Assembly: GCA_946699065.1 (NCBI GenBank)
Contig: CAMPDV010000201.1
Coordinates: forward strand, 422,835-486,834
DNA: 64,000 bases
From: Loxodes magnus
Lineage: Eukaryota; Ciliophora; Karyorelictea; Loxodida; Loxodidae
Direction: 5' to 3'
This document shows positions 925 through 54,997 of the stretch, piece after piece; within the stretch, counting starts at the first letter, position 1, and the number at the start of each line of letters is the position of its first letter. Under the pieces are notes generated by a model. That model searched no databases. It saw only the letters and a list, made by a program, of their open reading frames with translations, and was not told the DNA's origin. The position numbers and the translations under genes are program-made.

Positions 925-2644
925 ATGTAATCCGAAACATCCTAGATTGTTTAGTGTCAATCTTGTAAAGAAGATTTCGACGGATAGGATGAACTTCCCG
1001 TGCTGTTGCCATGTAAGCACAATTTATGTGCAACCTGTACTCAAGATCAATTTTTAAACAGAAAATGCATCAAACGCTCAAATTGTCAAGAAGTTCATAC
1101 GATCCACCCTTAAAACTTATTAAAAGACAGTTAGTTACTTTAGCATCTTGAGCAAAAGAGTGTAGTGAAAAGTATAAAACTATTGGAAAATTAATCTTTA
1201 AAAATACATTAAGCTTAGACTTAACTGGCTAAAGTTTAATTTAATTTCATCTAGTAGTTGATCAAGCACGTAAGTAATTACATTCTTAAGGATAATATCA
1301 TCTTATAAAAATAGCTGGTTTAGCAGGATAAGCAAATCTAAGAACGGTTAAGGTTTTTCTAAATCTAGAAATAGATGATAGATAAATAGGGGAGTAATTA
1401 GTAGAAGTATGGCTAATAATGTTTAGATATTTCTTAGTTTGAGCCCTAAGTAACGAAATTAGTAACTGATGCTTAAAGGATTATCTAGTAGAATGCTCAG
1501 ATAACAGTTAAGTGCTATGAGGAGTTAGACAGTTACAAGTTAAATCAGGCTTAAATGGTTTAGGAAAATAGCTACTTAAAGAATGAGATTTAAAAGATGA
1601 GTAACTAAGTATAAAATCTTTAATAGGAGTTGGTTTCACTTTAAGGCTAGTAAAGCTAATTGTAGTAATAATAAAAGACACAATTAGTACAGCCTGAGCA
1701 AATTTAAGAAATTTAAAATATTCCTTAATAGGCAGAGCCATAGGATTTCTAGATAATCATAGTATCACCAAATAATAATTCATTATAGCTCTAGGTCAAA
1801 TAAGAAACTACAATCTGGTAGATAAAAGAATAAATCTAAAAATAAACTAGATTATCCTTATATCATCTCGACGTCTTAAAGAACAACAAAAAACTGTGGG
1901 ACACTGAAATTTTATCGAATTTATAAATTGTAAATGGAGAAAAGCTTCAAATGAAGAGAAGTAAGTTTAAAAATTAAATGTTTTATTAAATTAGATGGTA
2001 AGTTATTTTATTAATAATTTAGAAGGTATAACGATTTTTAAAAATTTATCTATAGGTAAGTTAACATTTAATATTCTTAAAACTATAGCATGTAAGTTAG
2101 CATTTAATATTCTTAAATTATAGCATGTAAGTTAACATTTTATTATTCTTAAAACTATAGACTGTAAGTTTTATATTTGATATTCTTAAAATTATAGTGA
2201 GTAAGTTTAATATTTAATATTCTTAAAATTATAGTTTGTAAGTTTGACACTTAATATTCTTAAAACTATAGACTGTAAGTTTGGCATTTAATATAATTAA
2301 AACTACAGATTGTAAGCTAAAGATTTAATATTATTAAAACTATAGAAAGTAAGTAAATATTTAATATTCTTAAAACTATAGAGAGTAAGTGGCGTTTTAA
2401 CGCTCCATTTAGATCGTAATTGTTTATTTTATCGATAGTATGTAAGAGATAGTTATAGTTCTCTTTATTCTTAGATCGTAGCAGTTTTTTAATATTATCT
2501 TAATTAGGCTGTAATATCTATTTAATTATTATTGTTTTATAGATTGTAAGTTTATTTGTAAAAGTATTCATAAGGGGGTAAGTTCAAGTCAATATGAGTA
2601 TAGGAAGTGAGATTCAATTTTACATTATGATAGTGTGGAAATGA
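925..2644 (+). CDS. RING finger / coiled coil / ubiquitin-like protein, copy 1, with a chain of 3-nt exons
   Basis: The first exon, 925-1960 (345 codons plus one base), starts MQSETS. It holds an N-terminal RING-type finger (C-Q-S-C, then C-K-H-N-L-C-A-T-C, then C-I-K-R-S-N-C, residues about 12-65), a Gln-rich coiled coil of about 200 residues, and a C-terminal ubiquitin-like fold (about residues 268-343). This is the layout of a RING E3 ligase, but no substrate can be named. The exon ends at GTAAGT at 1961. About seventeen 3-nt exons follow, then a last exon 2604-2644 that ends on TGA. Exon lengths sum to 1,128, exactly 376 codons. Paralogues with the same design lie at 14228-14935 and 21593-23566. 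The start is the first ATG of the open frame. Confidence 0.85.
1961..2603 (+). other. Micro-exon array 1: introns separated by single-codon exons
   Basis: Runs of GTAAGT...TATAG are separated by exactly three variable bases. The triplets include CAT (2134), ACT (2161), TGA (2198), TTT (2235), ACT (2272), ATT (2309), AAA (2346), AGA (2382), TAT (2439), GCT (2508), ATT (2543) and GGG (2575). Two longer gaps each hide a further AG-ATC-GT junction. Intron lengths vary (23, 26, 28, 30, 32, 33, 34) and are not multiples of three, while the exon stays at three. One junction (CTATAG directly followed by GTAAGT) has no exon. Spliced with the flanking exons the frame is kept, giving a 17-residue linker ending in L-Y-R-Y-W. 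Whether all units are really spliced needs RNA. Confidence 0.8.
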
Positions 2645-14227: not shown

Positions 14228-14935
14228 TCATTCGATCACTATCATAATGTAAAATTGATTCTCACGTCCTATATTCCTATTATCTACACTTACCCCCTTA
14301 TGAATACTTTTACAAACAAACTTACATTCTATAAAATAATAATATTAAAGTAAATATTACCGCCTAATTAAGATAATATTAATAAACTGCTACGATCTAA
14401 AAGTAAAGAGAACTATAAACACCTCTTACATACTATCGATAAAATAAATCATTACGATCTAAATGGAGCGTTAAAACGCCACTTACTCTCTATAGTTTTA
14501 AGAATATGAAATGTCAAACTTACAATCTATAATTTTAAGAATATTAAATGATAAATTTACGCCCTAAAGTTTTTAGAATATTAAATGTTTACTTACCTAT
14601 AGATAAAATTTTTTTAATGCTTCGTACCTTCTAAATTATTAATAAATAAACTTACCCACTAATTTAATAAAGCATTTAACTTTTAAACTTACTTCATTTC
14701 ATTTGAAGCTCTTCCCCATTGACAATTTATAAATTCGATACAGTTTAATCGTCCTACAGTTTATTGTTGTTCTTTAAGATTTCAAGAGTATATTATCATA
14801 AATAAGTTTATTTTTCGATTTATTTTTTTATCTTCTTTATCGTAGTCTTTTATTTTACCTAGAGTTATAATATCTTATTGTTTGGCGATACTATGGTTAT
14901 CTAAATACCATAAAGTTTTGCCTGTTAAGGAGCAT
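14228..14935 (-). pseudogene. RING-UBL copy 2, 5'-truncated, with micro-exon array
   Basis: Only the ubiquitin-like domain (about 14935-14693, I-T-I-V-S-P-N-N-K...L-Q-M-K) and the 3' array remain; the RING and coiled coil are gone. The array 14692-14269 has about eleven triplet exons: TGG, AAG, GGC, ATT, AGA, ATC, TAT, ATC, GCG, AAT and GGG. The last exon 14268-14228 encodes G-R-E-N-Q-F-Y-I and ends on TGA. Spliced, the triplets read M-E-G-H-Q-N-L-Y-R-E-W, in frame with the last exon. Frame is still kept, so truncation may be recent. Confidence 0.7.
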
Positions 14936-19560: not shown

Positions 19561-21592
19561 AATCATCATTCTTCTTTATATAGAATACTCCTCTAAGAAT
19601 TTCTAATTTATATTTCAAAAATTTATTTCTAGTCTCTTTAATTATTCTTTAAATTAAAGTAATTACTTCATATTTTTTTATTTTTATAGTTTCTAAAATT
19701 ATCAATAATTATCTTTCAAAAATCAAATAATTGAAAGCTTTTATTTTTATATTGAAATAAAATAAATTTTTAAGAATTAATAATCAATAAAAAGAAATAC
19801 ATTTGTCATAAGATGCTAGATTGCGATTTATTATTTAATTTTGATTATTGAGCTTTTATAATTTACACTACTATAATAAAATTATAGCTATTTAGTATGT
19901 AATCTCTATTAATTTATTAAAAATAGCTTTTTTAATACAATTAATCTTTTAATTTCGCAATTTATTAAGCTTTAAGCTACATATATCTGAATTCTTAAAT
20001 TTAAATGATTTTTATTAATTAGTTTGTCTTTATCTTTTTTAATTTTTTAATTATATGATATTATCTTTTTTGTAAAGATATTTTGAATTACAATTAATTT
20101 ATTTTAAAATTACTGTAGATTAAGTATTTAAAATTATTTTTTAATTTAATATGAATAAACTAACATATTTTAGTTATTAATTATTTATCATTTATTTTTA
20201 TTTTATTATTTTCTCTTATTTTATTGTTTTTGCTTACTCTAAAAATATTAAAGGGTAAAAATTTAATAGTTAGGTATTCAAATAGTATTTAGTATGTTTC
20301 TTGGTCAGTTTAAGCAATGCAATTCTATCTTTTTATTTTTCTTTTTATAATTAAATTAAAACGCAGAGTAATTAGATTATTCTTTTACTTTAACCTCAAA
20401 CTTTTTAATCTTAATTTGTATATTTATCTTATAAAATTATATTCTGATACTAAATTAACTTTTCTATTATGTTTTTGAAAATTTGAATTAATAATTATAT
20501 AAATTAATTTTATTTAATATTAATATTTATTTTAAATTTAAAATTAAAATTAATTAAATGTTTTCCTTTCTCTTTTTTCTCCTCTTTTTATTTCTTAACT
20601 TCTTACCCTTTTTTACTTGCAATCCTTTTATTCAAATAATTTTAAACTTTTAAAACTATTTAAGTCTTAATTATTAAAAAAATATTTTTAGTCTTTTTGA
20701 TTTTTTTAAACTTTTATAAATTAAAAAAAAACTTCCTTTAAAGCCCTTTTACTCTCAAATTGATCTTTAAAATTTTTTTATCCTTTTAAAACTTTTAAAT
20801 TTCCAAACTTTCCACTTTAATATAATTATTAACTAACTAACATAACAATATTTTAACTCAAATATTTTAGAAAACATTAAAAATATTTTAAACTTTAAAT
20901 CTCATAACTCAACACTCATCTAACTTTATCCAATAGAATTTCAAAAACAAATACCAGAATAAATAAAAAAACAACATAAATTTTAACTTCATAATAAAAT
21001 ATCCAAAATAATATCAAAGTGACCTTTTAACTTATTACTAAAAAACTTAATCTAAATTAAACTAAACTAAACTAAATATTTTACACCTTATTACATTTTA
21101 ATCTACTCTCACATATTTCATAACATATTCACTCTCACTCAAACTAAATAGACTTTTTTTAAACATCTTAACTATTATATCTATAAAAACTATATTATCA
21201 CAATATAGCAATTTAACAATCGTCCTCACAAGGTATACTTATCATTAAATTAATAAACTTAAATATAAAATTACCTTAAATACACTCTTTTTCATAAAAT
21301 ATACTACTCTTAATAAACATTAATTACTATCATTAAATTCCAAACTAAAAACATAATATAAAATAGATACACAAATAATTATGAAAATAATATAACTTTA
21401 AATAGCAAACTAAAATGAATAGTATATATTCAAAAGATTAATTAAGATATACTTTTATTTACTCTTCATAAAACTATTATTGCCCATTAATACCTTTAAT
21501 ACCCTTTATATAAATACAAAATTAATAAGTATATTTAATTTTATTTAATTAGAGTTTAAATAAAGTATATAAAGTCAATTCTTCTCCTAGTC
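19561..21592. other. AT-rich region between the duplicated gene and RING-UBL copy 3
   Basis: From 20500 onward it matches the flank of copy 2. The block 19770-20500 is absent from the copy 2 locus and is either an insertion here or a deletion there. No gene seen. Confidence 0.45.
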
Positions 21593-23566
21593 TCACTCAT
21601 AAACTATGTAAAATTGATTCTCACGTCCTATTTTACTCATAAACCGCAACTCACCCCCTTATTTTTACCCTTTTACAAACATAACATACATTCTATAAAA
21701 CAATTATAATTAACTTACCTCCTATATTAAAGATTATTATAAAAATAACTGTTACGCACTAAAAATAGAAAGAACTATAAATACCTCTTACATGCTATCG
21801 ATATAAATAAACATTACTCTCTAATTTGGAAACTCAAAATGTTTACCAACTATATGTTTAAGAATATTAAAATGCTTACTCCCTATAAGTTTTAAAGGAA
21901 TATTAAAATAATTACCTTCTGTAAGTTTTAAAAAATATTAAAATACTTACTCCCTATAAGTTTTAAAAGAATATTAAAATAAATACTTTCTATAAGTTTT
22001 AAAGAATATTAAAATACTTACCCTCTATATGTTTTAAAAGAATTCTAAAATACGTACCCTCTATATGTTTTAAAGAATATTAAAATACTTACTCCCTATA
22101 ATTTTACAAGAATATTAAAATACTTACGAACTATAAGTTTTAAAGAATATTAAAATAAATACTTTCTATAAGTTTTAAAGAATATTAAAATACTTACAAC
22201 CTATATGCTTAAAAGAATATTAAAATACTTACATACTATAAGTTTTAAAAGAATATTAAAATGCTTAACTTACAATCTATAAGTTTTAAAAGAATATTAA
22301 AATGCTTAACTTACAATCTATAAGTTTTAAAGAATATTAAAATACTTACTCCCTATAATTTTACAAGAATATTAAAATACTTACGAACTATAAGTTTACA
22401 ATAATATTAAAATACTTACAAACTATAATTTTTAAAGAATATTAAAATACTTACATACTATAAATTTTAAAAGAATATTAAAATGCTTACTATCTATAAG
22501 TTTTAAAAATGTGTCGTACCTCCTAAAATTATTTATAAAATAACTTACCAGGATCTTTAATAAAAGATTTAACTTTAAACTTACCTCCCTTCATTTGAAG
22601 CTTATCCCCATTGACAATTTATAAACTCGATACAGTTTATCCGTACCACAGTTCATCGTTGTTCTTAAAGATGTCGAAAGTACATGGCACTAACTTAGTT
22701 TATTGTCCGATTTATTCTTTTATCTACTCTATCGTTTTCTCTTATTTGACCTAGAGCTATAATGCCTTATTGTTTGGCGATACTATAGTTATCCAGATAT
22801 CATAAAGCTTTGCTTACTAAGGAATATTTTTAAGAGATTAGATTGCCTTATTTTAAGACTTTAAAAACTAAATCTATAAACCTTGCATCTATCTCGCTTA
22901 CTCTTTTATAAACTCTTAATGCTTCTCTATTTATCTTTAATACTTTTATATCTTAGACTTTTAATCGATGCTTTATTAGAAAATATTCAAGTTGTTACTA
23001 ACTAACTTGCTATACTCTTTCTGAGCTTTTTATAAGATACTCTTTCCATTTTCAATCATTCTATTTTATTCTTATCTTGCAAAATCACCTTATAAACTTT
23101 AAGATCTCAACTAACCTTATATCTCTAAAAGAGTTGCTATCTTCTTCTTAACCAAGACCAACACACTCTATAAATCTTTTTATATATCAGAACTGCTTGC
23201 TAGCAAATAATTTTCAAGATCCTATAAGAATTTATTCGCAATCTATACCTTTACTTTAGTTATCTTTTAGGCTTCTTTACTAAGTTCCTTCTCTAAATGT
23301 TTTAGAGTATTTAAATCATTTTATAAGGATGATTATTTGATGTTTTATAATAAGCCTTCATCAAATTTTAATTTTCCTGGATGTGTTTGAGTCATAACCT
23401 TACAGTCAACTTTTGCACATTAGATTTAACTATCCTTTGAATAGTTAGTATGAATACAATCATAACACATTTAGTGTTCACATGATAGAAGCATTGGAAT
23501 CTTCTTCTCATCGTCAAAATTTCCGTTGCAAGCTTCACACTTGATGGCTACGGATATTTCAGACAT
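21593..23566 (-). CDS. RING finger / coiled coil / ubiquitin-like protein, copy 3, longest micro-exon array
   Basis: The first exon, 23566-22585 (327 codons plus one base), encodes MSEISVAIKCEAC and a RING-type finger (C-E-A-C, C-E-H-Q-M-C-Y-D-C, C-A-K-V-D-C). A Gln-rich coiled coil follows, then a ubiquitin-like domain (I-T-I-V-S-P-N-N-K-A-L...V-N-G-D-K-L-Q-M-K). Then come one 6-nt exon, about 26 three-nt exons and a last exon 21627-21593 ending on TGA. The total of 982+6+78+35 = 1,101 bases is exactly 367 codons. It is likely a ubiquitin-ligase-like protein. The first exon is open throughout and sits 190 bases from the end of a retroposon ORF1 on the same strand. Confidence 0.85.
21628..22584 (-). 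other. Micro-exon array 3: about 26 consecutive single-codon exons
   Basis: On the plus strand the pattern is TTAC-NNN-CTATA (rc TATAG-NNN-GTAA) repeated 19 times between 21845 and 22500, plus non-repetitive units on both sides. The triplets (gene strand) include ATA, TAT, TTT, TTC, GGA, ATT, ATT, TAT, GTT, AAA, TTC, GGA, AGG, AGG, AAA, GGA, AAG, GGA and TTG. Introns are 32-38 nt in the repeated part and 23-35 nt elsewhere. Donors are GTAAG, GTATT, GTACG, GTAAT or GTGAG; acceptors are TATAG, ACAG or TTAG. The exon never deviates from three bases, except for one 6-nt exon near the start. Confidence 0.8.
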
Positions 23567-23754
23567 TACTATTATTTATAAAAAAAAGATCCTTAAATAC
23601 CATAATTAAACCCTGAACATTACGTTTCATTTATTTTAATCTCCTTAAAGAAATATTAAAATTAAATAATTAAAAAATAATTAAAATAAATCTATAAATA
23701 TTAAACAGATTTAATTACATAATTAAAAATTATAATTTCTTAATTAAATTAAAA

Positions 23755-37280: not shown

Positions 37281-38343
37281 ATGGAAAATAAAGAAATTCT
37301 ATTTATTAAAACTATTTTTTTACGAAAACTGTTAAGACAAAGAATTGATTCCCTAGGCAGAATACCTCTTCTTCTTTTTAAATATGAAATCCTACCCAAT
37401 TTGTGTTTTTAAAAACTTGTCAATAAAATCAATTATGACTAAAATTAAGGTAATTCTTAATATTTTAGATTAAGTTTTCACTGGCCATTTATATGCAGTT
37501 TTATCGGTTGTAATATCAAGAGACTAGAAATGAATTATTTCAACATCTTGAGATAAAACGATAAAGATTTGGGATTTCCAGACTGGAAGGTGTATGAGAA
37601 CTTTGAATGGACATACGGATTGAGTTTACTCGGTAGAAATATCAAGAGACTAGAAATGAATTGTAACGGGAAGCCGAGATAAAACGATAAAAATTTGGAA
37701 TTTCTAGACTGGAATCTGTACGAGAACTTTAAATGGACATATGGATTGAGTCTACTCAGTAAAAATAACAAGTAACCAGAAATTAATTGTAACAGAAAGT
37801 GTAGATACAACAATAAAGATTTGGGATTTCCAGACTGGAAATTGTACAAGATCTTTGACTGGACATACACATTCAATTAGATCGGTAGCAATAACCAGTG
37901 ACCAAAAATGAATTGTAACGGGAAATCGAGATGAAACGATAAAGATCTGGTCTTTCTTAACTGGTTAGCTTATTCGAACTCTGACTGATCATTAAAACTG
38001 GATTGGATAGATAATCTTATCTCTGGATAATAAATATATAATATCATGTTCTGCTGATTAATCAATTAAAGTATGGAACTTTTAGAATGGATAATGCATT
38101 CAAACTCTTACAGGTCACACAAATGTTGTGTTTAGTATTCAAATTAGTAATGATTCAAGTGCTATATTTTCTGGTTCTTGAGACAAGATAATCAAGATAT
38201 GGAACTTCTAAACAGGAGAATGTATTTAAACTCTCTTAGGCAATACTTAAGAAGTAAATTCAATAGCATTAAGCAAGGATAATAAATGGATTATATCAGG
38301 ATCTTGTGATAGCACTGTGAGGAAGTGGAGAATAGCGAATTGA
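37281..38343 (+). CDS. Seven-blade WD40 protein with a 19-nt intron
   Basis: Exon 1 is 37281-37449 and exon 2 is 37469-38343. The intron GTAATTCTTAATATTTTAG (37450-37468) joins phase 1 exons, and the spliced length 1,044 is exactly 348 codons, ending on TGA at 38341. The 55-residue N-terminus (MENKEILFIK...) precedes seven WD repeats of about 42 residues, for example S-R-D-Q-K-W-I-V-T-G-S-R-D-K-T-I-K-I-W-N-F, where the first W is TGA. Seven blades make a complete propeller, so this is probably an intact scaffold protein; its partner is unknown. Repeats 1-4 are unusually similar to each other. Confidence 0.9.
37450..37468 (+). other. 19-nt intron
   Basis: GTAATTCTTAATATTTTAG has canonical GT/AG ends. 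Removing it restores frame between the N-terminus and blade 1. The paralogue has a 20-nt version at 54467-54486. It shares the TTCTTAA core with introns in the micro-exon arrays. Confidence 0.85.
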
Positions 38344-45559: not shown

Positions 45560-48500
45560 TTAAATTTAACTAAAAAAATTTGTGGTACCTTCAATTTTCA
45601 GAATATGTTCTTCCAATTGAAGGTATTATATTGTTTTTAAATGTTATTGTATATCAAGTTTATTGCTCTTCAGAACTAATTTTCTAGTTTAGGTTTTTTT
45701 TTTCTTCTAAGTATTTTCTTTCTTGTTCATTTTCAAGCTAACTTTCATTTTTTTCTATTTTCTGTTGTCAATCTTCTTCTTCTTCATCTTCGCTATCGTT
45801 TTCCTCTTCGTTCCAATCTTCTTCTTCCTCATCATTTTACATCTAATTTTGTTGGACATCTTATTCTTTGTTTTCTTGTTTTTATTATTCTTCATTCTCT
45901 TCATTAAAATTTTCTATTCTTAGATTTGCTTCTTTTTATTATTTCTCGTATTGCTCTTCTTCTTTCTCTTGTTATAGAATTTCTCGCCTCCTTTTAATAA
46001 ACATTTGAATGAATATTTTTATTTATTCATCCACCATTTCTATTTTTTTCTTAGGAAAAGAGTTTATATATAGTTAATCGTAACTTATTAGTTTCAAAAT
46101 ATCACATTAACCAATTTTGGAGACCAATCATTCTCTTATATCAATGTAATATATACATTCCATTACATGTTGGAGAGTGTCATATTCTCCGCATATACAA
46201 AAAGGGTTTTCAATAATATAATTTCGATCTTTCAGAGTCTTTCGAAATGCGTAAGACTGGCTTCTAATCTTATAGATACAAATTATTTCTTTCAAATATT
46301 TTTTGTTTAATTTCGTGTATGTTATTTTGGGGAATTATCTTAGGTTTTAAAATTGTTCTGTATATATTTATGCAGTAGGCATTCTGCTGAATCTTGAAAG
46401 AGCTAATTCAAAATATGTCTTTTATATTTATGTCTACACATATTTACTGAATTAAATTAAGTTGTTATTGTGCTCTTTATTATCAATTTCTATTTTATAA
46501 AATGAGGCCAGTTTCTAAACTTCATCATAATATTGATATCCCTCTTTATAATTATTCTCAAACAATATTCCAATAGATGATTAAGGTTGATTTTAGCTTT
46601 CATTTCTAATCTTAAAGAAAAACCTGAAATACTTAAGAGCCATCATGTGTTTGAATGGCATCCAATTGAGGTCTACAAAGCATGATTCATTAAACGTATT
46701 TCCTGCTGATTATAAGGCTTTTCTGGCTATTAATCTCATGCTCTTTTCAATTCTGTTCAAGATTCCATTTATTCCATACTGCACAGTCCGAGGTATTAAG
46801 TCCCCACCGTATTCTGCTTTAGGAAGCGTGAACAGTCTACAAAGCATTTTTAAATTTCAAGGTGTTACGTTTCTATATCTTGATAATGCAAATACTGCCT
46901 TTTTAATTGCTGAAAGATAGTTTGCAGCAACGTATTTGCAATGGTTAATTAGATTCTTCTTTTGGTGAAGGATCACCCCTAAATATGTGACTTGCTGTTT
47001 CTAAATTATTGCTTGGTCTCCTATTTTTAAGTCTAGTTTTGTTTCTTTGCTTTTCTTTTTTAAAAACTATAACGTTTCGCATTTGGAGACATTTATTTTA
47101 AGAAATGTCTAATTGAAAATGGAGTTTGCTTCATTAATAAGTGACTACATATTTTTTTATGAGTTCGATAATAGTATTAAATCGTCAGCTCAACCTCTAC
47201 AAGTGAACCTATTCTTAAAATTAGCACATCTGAATCCTAATATTTCTCCTTTGTTTTCTATATGTCTAATGACAATGTCATAGTATAATAATGCAAGCAC
47301 AGGTCCATGCGAACTTCCTTACATCACTCCATTGCTAAATTTCAATTTCTTAGAATTTGTTCCGTCTATAATAAAGGAAGTAGTTAAGTTATTATAAAAT
47401 GATTCTAAAGCCAAGATGAGACCTAGTGGTAATTTGACTCTTCTTAGTTATTTAAAAAGAATTCTTCTTTCAATAGAATCAAACATTTTCTCTACGTCAA
47501 TTAAAGTTGCAATCAGTTTAGTTTTTCCTTTCGCTTGTTTTCGATAAAGATCTATGATTTATTGGATCACTCATATTTATTAGGTGGTTTATTTGTTCTT
47601 CATAAACCCCATTTAGCTTGAGTGGATTAACTGTCTTTCATAAATTATTGAGTAGAGTCTCTTCGTAAGGGCCTTATCATATAATTTCAAAATAGTATTG
47701 ATAAGGGAAATAGGGCGTCAGTTTTTTCAATCGTCTTTACTTCCTTTTTTGAAAATGGGGATTATGATAGAAGTATTAAGCTCTTCAGGAATCCTTCCAA
47801 TTCTAAGCATGTTATTTATAAAAGAATGAAGCATCAACGCTAGATAATATCCTGCATATTTTAGCAATTCTCCTTTTATTCCATCTGGCCCTGCTGCTTT
47901 ACCATTAGGAATTAGACTTATAAGTTAGATAATCTCTTCTATTGTAAAAGGATCGAAATTTTATAAGTAAGAAAAGGGTTAATTTTGAATTTCTATGTTA
48001 TTTTCATAAATTGCATCTATTTTCTAGTTACTTAGTTCAATCTATTGGTTAGTTAAATTCGAATGCTTGCTAAATACCTAATTTTCCCATGCTTCTACAA
48101 ATTAGTCCTTCAATTCCTTATTAAAGTTCATCAAATTTCTTTGTCTAGGGTTAAGTATTTTCTTTGCTTAAGAAAACATATCTTTTGTGGTTTCATTGAG
48201 GAGTAGGAATCTGTTTTTGGCCTTTTGTTTTTTAAATTTTCATAAATGATGCTAAAAGCTTTTTCATAATGTGTTCGCTCTTTAGTGAAGATCAATGATT
48301 TCTTAGTTATTCCTCCCTATATATGCTAAAGTTTCTTTGTACAATTAATTTGCTCTCTTTGCTTCGATATATTTTTATGTGAGGTCCTTAGGAAGTCTAT
48401 TATACTTCGGGTCTGGGATAAATGAGCCTAAAACTTAATCTGCATTGTTCTAAATGCAGTCTCTAATATAAGTGTATTAATCTTCTAAGTTATCTCTATC

Positions 48501-50400
48501 AATTAGGAAGAATACTTCTACTTAATCTTTGAATGAATTCTAATAGATAAATCTATCAATAGGATCCTACAGTCTACTTATTTTGTACTTTCTCACTTTT
48601 ATTTTTTCAGTTTGAAGATGAGTATGGTATACAAATTCAACTGTGAATGGAATATGATCTGAAAATAAGCTATAATTATGAACCTGAAAATTTCTAAATT
48701 AATTCATATTCAAGTGATTACTGATGACAATATAATCGTTGCAATACATATTTTTATTCCCTTTATGTAAACATGTGTTCATATTTGCATCGTTTATTAT
48801 TTCTAAATCGTTTTAGAGAATGAATTCTTAGAATCTATTTGTATTGTCATAGTTGTTAATAGGGTTATCCCCAAAGCCTTATAGTAGTGCGTTAAAATCT
48901 CCTAATAATATATGTGAGTTGTCAGGAAAAGAATTAAGGAATACATTTATATATTCATATGCTTCGTCTTTTATATTTTCACTCTTGCTGTTATCTGGCA
49001 TGTAACAAGATGTTATGAATATATTATCTAGTTTGATTGTAACGAACCTCTCTTGAGCTAATTGTTATATGCTATTCTATTCCATGCTATTAAGTTAATC
49101 TCTAACAATTAAGCAAACTCCTCCTCCTTTTCCTGAGTTCTTGAAATAGGTCCTATATCCATTAATAAGTATTGGAGGATAGTCTTATTTTTATCACGTT
49201 TCATTAATTGAGAAAATGTCTAAGTCATTATTTCGTATAAATTCTTCCACGTTTAATTGCTTGCTTCCAATTCCATTTATGTTAATATGTCCAAGCTTTA
49301 TTATGCCTATCTCTCTTTGCTTATCGATAGGCATCTTTATTTCTTAATTCTCAAATTCTTGTTTGCATTAATACGGTTATTCTACATTGTTCTCTACACC
49401 TCCTTTGAGTCTTAGTTATTTTTAAAGGACAATATAGTTAATTCTAAAATCAGTTTATAGCAGCGTTTTAACTATATAATTTCCGTTTTTTATAAATCGA
49501 TGAATTTCTTATGATGAAGTCAAAACTCCTCCTTTTATTCCTGGCTCATAAATACAGAGAATCTTCTCATTTTGATGAATTTATATGTTAAGCAATTTGG
49601 GGCAATTTTTGATATATTACCTGTAACTTATTATAATGAATAATGTCAATGAATCGTACTTTTCACTCAATTTATTATCGATTTTTATATCTATTTCATT
49701 TCCATCACACGTAGCATGGTTTAGTTTGCAAGATAAAGTTATAAATCTATTGCCTACTAAAGTGAAAAGATTCTAATTTCATCATTTATTGGACCTTATA
49801 AATTGAATTAGTTAGGCGTCTTTAAATTCGTATTTATTTAAAATCTCTTCAATATTTATTTCATTAAACCCAAATTTTGACTATTTTAAGTTTAAAGTGT
49901 CTTGGTTAAATTTGGCATCTCTTCAACTTCTCTTTCCAAATTTTGTTTGGCTATCCCAATTCATCACATATGATGTCTAGATATTTGAATTTTCTAAAAT
50001 TTCAGTCTGCTAATCTTCTTAAATTTAATCACTTAAAAATGTTTATGTTGAAGCATTTCATTTTATTTCTTTCAAGTAAGATTGAGTTTTAACATCTTAT
50101 TATTTTCTTTATATTTCTGAAATTTATGCATAGACATTTAGCTTCAATTCTACTTGATGCTCATAATCCAGCATGAGTTAAACATATAATCCGTTTAATT
50201 CATTATATTACTCTTACAGTTTTCCATTATTCTATTTTGTGATTTATAGTTCTTGTTAAGAAGCAACTAGCTAATGATTGGTAACTACTGTTATTGTTCC
50301 TTCATCCTTAGCATTGATAGAATTTTAAGTCTAAATAACCTAATTTTTTAACTCCATGATTCTTGTCTAACTATAATTGCTTATTAATTTCCCTTTTTTT
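45560..50400 (-). mobile_element. LINE 2: single-ORF non-LTR retrotransposon, nearly complete
   Basis: One long frame carries a coiled-coil N-terminus, an APE endonuclease, a reverse transcriptase, a Cys/His motif and an acidic tail. A hairpin with arms ACCTTCAATT and AATTGAAGGT lies at 45580-45630 near the 3' end. It differs from LINE 1 in organisation, in catalytic motif context and in 3' end. Confidence 0.85.
45651..50357 (-). CDS. LINE 2 polyprotein: coiled coil, endonuclease, reverse transcriptase
   Basis: From ATG at 50357 about 1,569 codons are open in the reassigned code. In order: a Gln-rich coiled coil (residues about 1-150); a region of about 200 residues without a known motif; the endonuclease (I-N-I-N-G-I-G, I-N-E-T-W with W=TGA at 49194-49196, L-L-G-D-F-N-A near 48890); the reverse transcriptase with F-T-C-R-G-W-A-D-D-L (TGA at 47190-47192); C-terminal F-C-I-C-G-E-Y...H-V-M-E-C; and a tail rich in Glu/Asp (E-E-E-D-W-N-E-E-E-N-D) near 45800. 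There is no separate ORF1; the coiled coil may take that role. The terminal codon is uncertain. Confidence 0.85.

Positions 50401-54300: not shown

Positions 54301-54997
<697 letters not shown>

Follow-up and report, generated by a model that had tools for sequence, protein, structure and literature searches.

Arrays of predicted codon-sized exons in the tails of a RING/ubiquitin-like gene family of the ciliate Loxodes magnus

The analysed window, a stretch of 64,000 nucleotides of Loxodes magnus DNA, carries on its minus strand a gene (gene 1) starting at 23566 with a large 5' exon (22585..23566). This exon encodes a RING-like finger (about 23539-23414; Pfam zf-C3HC4, E 3.4e-4), a middle part that by eye resembles a coiled coil, and a ubiquitin-like domain (about 22789-22585; Pfam ubiquitin, E 1.4e-3). 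It stays open with TAA and TAG read as glutamine, holds no TGA, and ends with ATG AAG GGA G at 22585, i.e., in phase 1. For L. magnus, a MAC assembly of 706 Mbp and the use of code table 27, with TGA as tryptophan or stop, were reported (PMC11441545). Read with the bacterial code, the window contained no frame reaching 150 aa; with TAA/TAG as glutamine there were 72 frames of at least 180 aa. The tail of gene 1 (22584..21593) contains 29 GT..AG introns in total. Intron 1 (22555..22584; 30 nt, GTAAG..AAAG) is followed by a six-base exon, ATCCTG (22549..22554), and then by an array (21604..22548) of 28 GT..AG introns of 21-38 nt, which enclose 27 internal exons of 3 nt: GAG ATA TAT TTT TTC GGA ATT ATT TAT GTT AAA TTC GGA AGG AGG AAA GGA AAG GGA TTG AGA CAT TGC GAG AAT GGG GAC. 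Part of the array (21860..22507) was identified by TRF as a tandem repeat with about 18 copies of a 35-bp unit. The last exon, TTTATGAGTGA (21593..21603), reads (C)TT TAT GAG TGA in phase 1, and the C-terminal end predicted after joining is LQMKG-DPGDIFFRNYLCQIRKEERKGIETLREWGLYE-stop. The terms "intron" and "exon" were used for the GT..AG elements and the bases between them.

A sequence-only reading of this locus had counted about 26 consecutive three-base exons; the array was found as described, with 27 internal exons of exactly 3 nt instead. For the repeated units it had proposed a constant three-base exon between introns of 32 to 38 nt. The spacing was recovered, apart from the one 6-nt exon in the tail, but the intron lengths were 30 to 38 nt. 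The extension of the rule to introns that are not copies of the repeat was borne out by the triplets AGA, CAT, TGC, GAG, AAT, GGG, and GAC at the 3' end. The gene 1 pattern was confirmed in the DNA as real and as widespread beyond the window, and two further tails in the window as well as a genome-wide family came in addition to that reading. On the plus strand, the paralogue gene 2 has a RING-like and ubiquitin-like exon (925..1960) with the end ATG AAG AGA A, again phase 1, and a tail (1961..2644) in which 17 introns with 3-nt exons follow one another and the first phase-1 TGA lies at 2642-2644. This run is preceded by further introns with 3-nt exons and a zero-length junction, TATAG/GTAAG, at 2055/2056. 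In the gene 3 tail (14228..14692, minus strand), 11 introns with 3-nt exons stand in a row, the first phase-1 TGA lies at 14230-14228, and a zero-length junction occurs at 14597/14596; no RING part was seen upstream, and the gene is probably truncated. Zero-length junctions of the form AG/GTAAG could be a recursive splice site or two fused introns, with the frame kept either way. Using a chain parser that imposes GTA/GTG..AG intron ends, the longest chains in the window at a forced exon size of 3 were 28 (minus) and 17 (plus). No chain longer than 5 was obtained at exon sizes of 0-2 and 4-12, none longer than 3 in 60 dinucleotide shuffles of the window, and the longest chain was 3 after masking of its three tails. 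Long chains arose only at exon size 3, despite the imposed intron ends. An Rfam scan of 21400-23700 gave a single match (AniS, E 0.46), below its cut-off, which was ignored.

The genome searched comprised 705,730,643 bases in 7,843 contigs. At least 81 matches were found for the array DNA, at least 51 for the gene 2 tail, and at least 126 for the gene 1 protein, with overlap between the sets. The conserved tail motif occurred in 46 exact copies (reversed control 0), and the open triplet after one tail intron was TAT in 46/46 of them. A second tail motif, that of the distant relative C1275 described below, was present at 117 places with up to 2 mismatches (control 0), so that both motifs together mark 163 places. 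Exactly flanked 3-nt junctions numbered 5,759 genome-wide. Thirty-one fetched loci and the three window tails were parsed into 943 units; exons of 3 nt are imposed by the parser, and in a few loci as many as three units at the far end are probably spurious. The chain reached the conserved tail in 30 of the 31 fetched loci and broke in L055 where donors are lost. L028 has one 2-nt exon that was bridged by the parser via shifted sites, and L036 is cut off by the locus edge. Unbroken parsed loci showed 17 to 125 introns in a row with 3-nt exons, the introns being mostly 20-38 nt long; the longest run, 125 units, was that of L011. The family is clustered: contig C78 (940 kb) carries 14 of the 46 exact tail motifs, 12 of them on the plus strand. 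In its predicted spliced form the joined conserved tail would give strings such as the 21-mer AGTTATATCGAGAATGGGGAC. A search for intronless copies of the joined tail, allowing up to 3 mismatches, found none.

The spacing was analyzed for the intron consensus of the nearest paralogues of gene 1 (type 1), from which the introns of gene 1 itself differ by 1-2 bases. Exactly 3 nt were found at 736 of 737 type 1 junctions (of 0-24 nt) genome-wide. Among 549 array introns of the fetched loci, 66 had lengths whose difference from 31 nt was not divisible by three. Comparing like anchors there, the length differed in 67 of 501 introns (over 12 bases) versus 1 of 404 exons (3 bases). At the per-base rate of the introns about 25 of 737 exons were expected to differ, and one was observed; the nominal P of 5e-10 for exon versus intron length change is too small, since the units share descent. 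The same spacing was found in the relatives C321 and C1275, which score 32-33% over the whole protein versus gene 1 in a search that counts TAA/TAG (Gln) as stops and gives 87% for gene 1 itself. Their array introns, GTAAGTTTCATTTTAATAATTAACACTTAAG and GTAAGTTAAAGTTTAAGGTGAAAATGAAG, do not resemble those of gene 1, and the exons are again 3 nt long, with array entry in phase 1 (CAA ATG GAA TTA A/GT). At the far end of C1275, the sole distant tail read, AAC GTT ATC GTG AAT GGG GAT stands before TGATGAAATGAGAG, compared to AGT TAT ATC GAG AAT GGG GAC before TGATCAATTGGTGAGAG in a near-paralogue tail of gene 1. At five of the seven positions the two triplets match or are one base apart, and the introns do not align by eye.

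For a second intron type, of the kind present in these relatives, 5,023 junctions of 3 nt (control 0) were found, next to 1,168 off-size junctions, of which 632 measured 0-2 nt and 536 measured 4-24 nt. The off-size junctions were concentrated: among the 100 listed of the 632, 96 fell into two arrays (C469:212-7009 and C675:204588-208242), and among the 100 listed of the 536, 97 fell into four, on C469, C675, C746, and C750. The 100 listed of the 5,023 places with 3 nt extended over contigs C41 to C156, with one off-size junction there (C151) among the matches listed. The long second-type arrays with a relaxed 3-nt rule are located at C469:51-7009, C675:204523-216658, C746:917-11940, and C750:154575-158135; in C750 the off-size junctions were fixed at 5 nt among the matches listed. 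None of the 100 listed of the 117 places with the second tail motif followed one of these four arrays on the same strand and side. We infer that the deviant arrays are decayed or mis-assembled satellites and form a natural control without the constraint; mis-assembly may be the cause of the long ones near contig starts. As the source of the 3-nt rule, mis-assembly is untenable, since the rule recurs in both paralogues of the window, in the 31 loci fetched, and in intron types that are unrelated to each other. The comparative evidence supports consecutive 3-nt exons, because the spacing is kept, and the rule recurs in unrelated introns, while intron lengths shift by non-multiples of three.

Introns and triplets differed strongly in their variability. 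A set of 271 introns with a length of 31 nt was compared across 19 loci, excluding L011. The consensus was matched exactly by 208 of them, and the main base reached at least 92% at every site; the ends of this consensus, GTAAGT..ATATAG, are nearly invariant. The triplets of the same units take 30 forms. Per-site heterozygosity was 0.0138 for the intron and 0.699 for the triplet in a deduplicated set of 288 units from 23 loci, from which L011, L036, a group of six near-duplicate loci, and all three tails of the window had been removed. Neighbouring units with identical introns shared their triplet in 21 of 162 pairs. Taking the ubiquitin-like exons of the fetched loci as yardstick (median dS 0.13, 435 pairs), the introns are more alike and the triplets far more different. 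The close relatives L015, L017, L018, L025, and L026 differ from each other mainly by gain or loss of whole units. Unit turnover keeps the introns uniform, and selection or mutation makes the triplets diverse. The triplet set is restricted, with 34 of 64 in use. Triplets containing GT (3 seen, 40.5 expected) and TAG, CAG, or GAG (0 seen, 15 expected) were scarce, as expected if extra donors and acceptors are harmful. This explains the set only incompletely, since AAG was not avoided (19 seen, 11.7 expected) and AAA, TAA, GAA, and TTT were rare for no clear reason (2 seen, 37.4 expected). A phase-0 rule assigning a single codon to each amino acid was rejected, as the 33 second-type triplets seen include AAA, TTT, GAA, and six ATT. 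We take the restriction as a trace of how the units arose rather than as a code.

At all 32 loci translated, the step from the upstream exon into the tail is in phase 1, and by eye this also applies to gene 3, L059, L061, L063, and L064; 13 loci have an alternative donor, GTGAAG, located 5 nt further upstream, whose use would result in phase 2. Joined in phase 1, the tails read LYREWGL, TLREWGL, RYREWGL, and similar. Between C1275 and the gene 1-type tail, 6 of 7 residues are identical in phase 1 (RYREWGL versus LYREWGL), compared to 4 of 7 in phase 0. Among the 21 tails in which the GAC-type triplet is followed by an intron, many of them close relatives, a TGA within 20 nt after the last intron was found for 20 in phase 1 (the exception being L016), for 12 in phase 0, and for 3 in phase 2. 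The other tail form ends by eye at the same in-frame phase-1 TGA in 14 of 14 cases, with a phase-0 TGA close after, and its last exon is 3 nt shorter in three of the 14 (L014, L019, L058). Inside the arrays stop avoidance was absent in any phase; for phase 1, 5 cross-junction TGA were seen versus 4.7 expected in 351 pairs. An initially apparent depletion of phase-1 TGA (9 seen, 31 expected) was an artefact of the fixed order in the conserved tail. The lack of avoidance is neutral at best, because TGA can be tryptophan in the L. magnus code, where it has this meaning away from the 3' end. Neither codon usage by phase nor pN/pS on the tail columns (0.73, 0.78, and 0.85 for phases 0, 1, and 2; 8 deep types; permutation P 0.29-0.44) separated the phases. 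In the arrays the triplet acts as a unit, with strong association inside and none across junctions, which is not predicted by phase 1 and is explained by the shared descent of the units. The sequence-only reading had equated each exon with one codon, allowing units to come and go without harm to the frame, and had held that a simple tandem repeat would not force the spacing in unrelated units. One codon's worth per exon was retained, but in phase 1, with codons straddling the junctions, and not in phase 0. Frame-safe gain and loss of units agrees with the data, yet is half the story: the triplets are hypervariable, and their diversity is about 50-fold that of the introns. The independence of the spacing from the repeat was upheld by the relatives with unrelated introns.

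The domains encoded upstream were compared with known families. Both Pfam matches of gene 1, zf-C3HC4 (20.9 bits, cut-off 21) and ubiquitin, are under the curated cut-offs, as is zf-RING_UBOX in gene 2 (23 bits, cut-off 25.2). A profile of seven paralogue domains matched ubiquitin among the PDB sequences in one stretch (e.g., 5vix_A, E 2.9e-6), which argues for homology of the paralogue domain to ubiquitin. With a pN/pS of 0.86 in the ubiquitin-like part and a dN/dS of 0.58-0.65 over three full-length genes, the upstream RING/ubiquitin-like exon is under weak constraint. Together the two domains suggest a putative ubiquitin-pathway protein with a targeting or recognition tail. Viewed by eye at 22789-22585 and at the corresponding place in the fetched loci, the ubiquitin-like domain is conserved except for a short variable stretch after TxL, such as YSHT, RSWT, or WAYT, which fits diversification of a contact surface. 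A TGA was found inside the ubiquitin-like exon in 5 of 6 loci checked (L009, L011, L015, L047, L051), and the gene family seems to use internal TGA as tryptophan. Such in-frame TGA in a coding exon offers a possible test case for context-dependent TGA.

The array, its spacing and deep conservation, the hypervariable triplets, and the continuity of the frame are shown by the sequences; splicing, translation, ligase activity, and a role in recognition are predictions. From these comparisons we consider it probable, at roughly 0.78, that the tail consists of spliced codon-sized exons read in phase 1, which add a hypervariable C-terminal peptide to a RING/ubiquitin-like protein. Each unit would comprise a spliceosomal GT..AG intron of about 20-38 nt and a 3-nt exon. 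The phase-1 introns would be excised one by one, and the triplets joined in frame with the RING/ubiquitin-like exon and onward to the TGA. The introns would behave as a minisatellite in which whole-unit gain or loss keeps the frame and leaves the triplets free to vary. The predicted product is a short hypervariable C-terminal peptide before a conserved L-Y-R-E-W-G-L-like end. On a putative E3 ligase this peptide would most likely serve as a variable tail for recognition or targeting, with its diversity arising from the shuffling of units and perhaps also from skipped exons. The array introns carry the signature of spliceosomal introns, a GTAAG-like donor and a conserved acceptor. For L. magnus introns in general a mean of 19.3 bp, a mode of 17 bp, and 93% at or below 25 bp were determined by read mapping, with a maximum of 40 nt in the annotation (PMC11441545). 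Ordinary introns are shorter than those of the arrays. A wider proposal, to which we give somewhat less than even odds, is a codon-by-codon writing of peptides: a minisatellite of intron plus codon, a family-wide hypervariable peptide, shuffling of whole codons, diversification of the triplets by selection or a targeted mechanism, possible skipping, and in consequence a recognition repertoire of a protist.

A minisatellite might also have grown from an intron and be removed as one intron or remain 3' untranslated, with the inner GT and AG as inherited copies and the spacing as the mere shape of the unit. Units do spread by whole-unit duplication, with 125 of them in the L011 array, and the genome of L. 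magnus was described as rich in tandem repeats (PMC11441545). In 14 of 32 loci, and by eye also in gene 3 and L061, TGA is the final complete codon ahead of the tail; should it act as a stop, the tails of these loci would not be translated. The absence of stop avoidance in the array interiors and the loss of spacing in some long arrays point in the same direction. But this explanation, which we regard as unlikely, accounts neither for 736 of 737 junctions keeping their spacing despite drift in intron length nor for unrelated intron families sharing it, and it gives no reason why tail triplets outlast the introns between subfamilies or why just 3 of 34 bases vary. The triplets could further be real exons of which a regulated subset is included, more an alternative-splicing device than an inherited hypervariable sequence. 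Any subset of triplets keeps the frame, and resplicing-like zero-length junctions (AG/GTAAG) occur in six tails (genes 2 and 3, L059, L060, L061, L064); the inherited differences between loci are already large, however, which makes this quite improbable. Least credible of all is an array that the mRNA retains and that is translated into a repeat protein, open merely because TGA is the sole stop: unspliced, gene 1 has an open frame to 21593 (675 aa), but unit lengths change by non-multiples of three and would scramble the frames, the second intron type has two TGAs per unit (GGTGAAAATGAAG), and the conserved GT..AG ends would have no role.

Compared with known systems, spliced codon-sized exons in series would stand apart. 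The micro-exon genes of schistosomes contain series of very short exons, most of them with lengths divisible by three so that they can be dropped in frame, and encode variable proteins; their exons measure 6-81 bp (3-81 in the abstract), mostly 15, their introns 0.1-5 kb, and there are 10-20 exons per gene (PMC10526429). Many symmetric short exons are common to these genes and the Loxodes tails (gene 1: 27 internal exons of 3 nt), but the former have mostly 15-bp exons and long introns, the latter 3-nt exons and near-identical intron copies of mostly 20-38 nt. A 3-bp exon in Drosophila homothorax (PMC7392893) and a 1-nt exon in Arabidopsis APC11 (PMC4674806) were reported. Exons of one codon or less can be spliced, as proposed for the Loxodes tails, but these are single tiny exons per gene with neither array nor hypervariability. 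The bicycle genes of aphids are a large, fast-evolving family with many micro-exons of almost all one phase, more than 100 in megacycle (PMC9168663). One-phase micro-exons are thus shared with the Loxodes tails, whereas the bicycle exons are described as small and not as single-codon and belong to insect effectors. The introns of bicycle and megacycle genes are presumably not tandem copies. In the PRDM9 zinc-finger minisatellite the repeat unit is coding, and the units are nearly identical apart from their variable positions. These are the DNA-recognition positions, at which the tandem units vary under positive selection (PMC3890296). The Loxodes units are likewise alike except at few positions (heterozygosity 0.014 versus 0.70), but 31 of their 34 bases are intronic with lengths varying by non-multiples of three, and the exonic part amounts to one codon's worth. 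Arrays of single-codon exons did not appear among the titles and abstract openings listed from the open-access literature searched, which mostly lies apart from subscription papers and preprints. In the main text of the L. magnus genome paper neither ubiquitin nor RING finger occurs, and "exon" appears in the reference list only (PMC11441545).

If the triplets are joined, the spliceosome copes with dozens to more than 100 successive exons of three bases, a situation that in our judgement is unforeseen by exon-definition models and hardly visible to ordinary read aligners. Thousands of exons would then have been missed by annotation in one genome, and a new route to hypervariable proteins would emerge, in which the repeat unit is mostly discarded and one codon per unit kept. 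Two questions would become testable: how small exons can be when they occur one after another, and by what means a protist might assemble a diverse repertoire for recognition. Elsewhere in the window, two coding tandem repeats with a 126 bp unit (37500-37950 and 54502-54886) appeared WD40-like by eye. Frames resembling parts of a non-LTR retrotransposon, endonuclease and reverse-transcriptase-like, were likewise seen by eye at 48264-49387 and 46128-46847 (minus strand).
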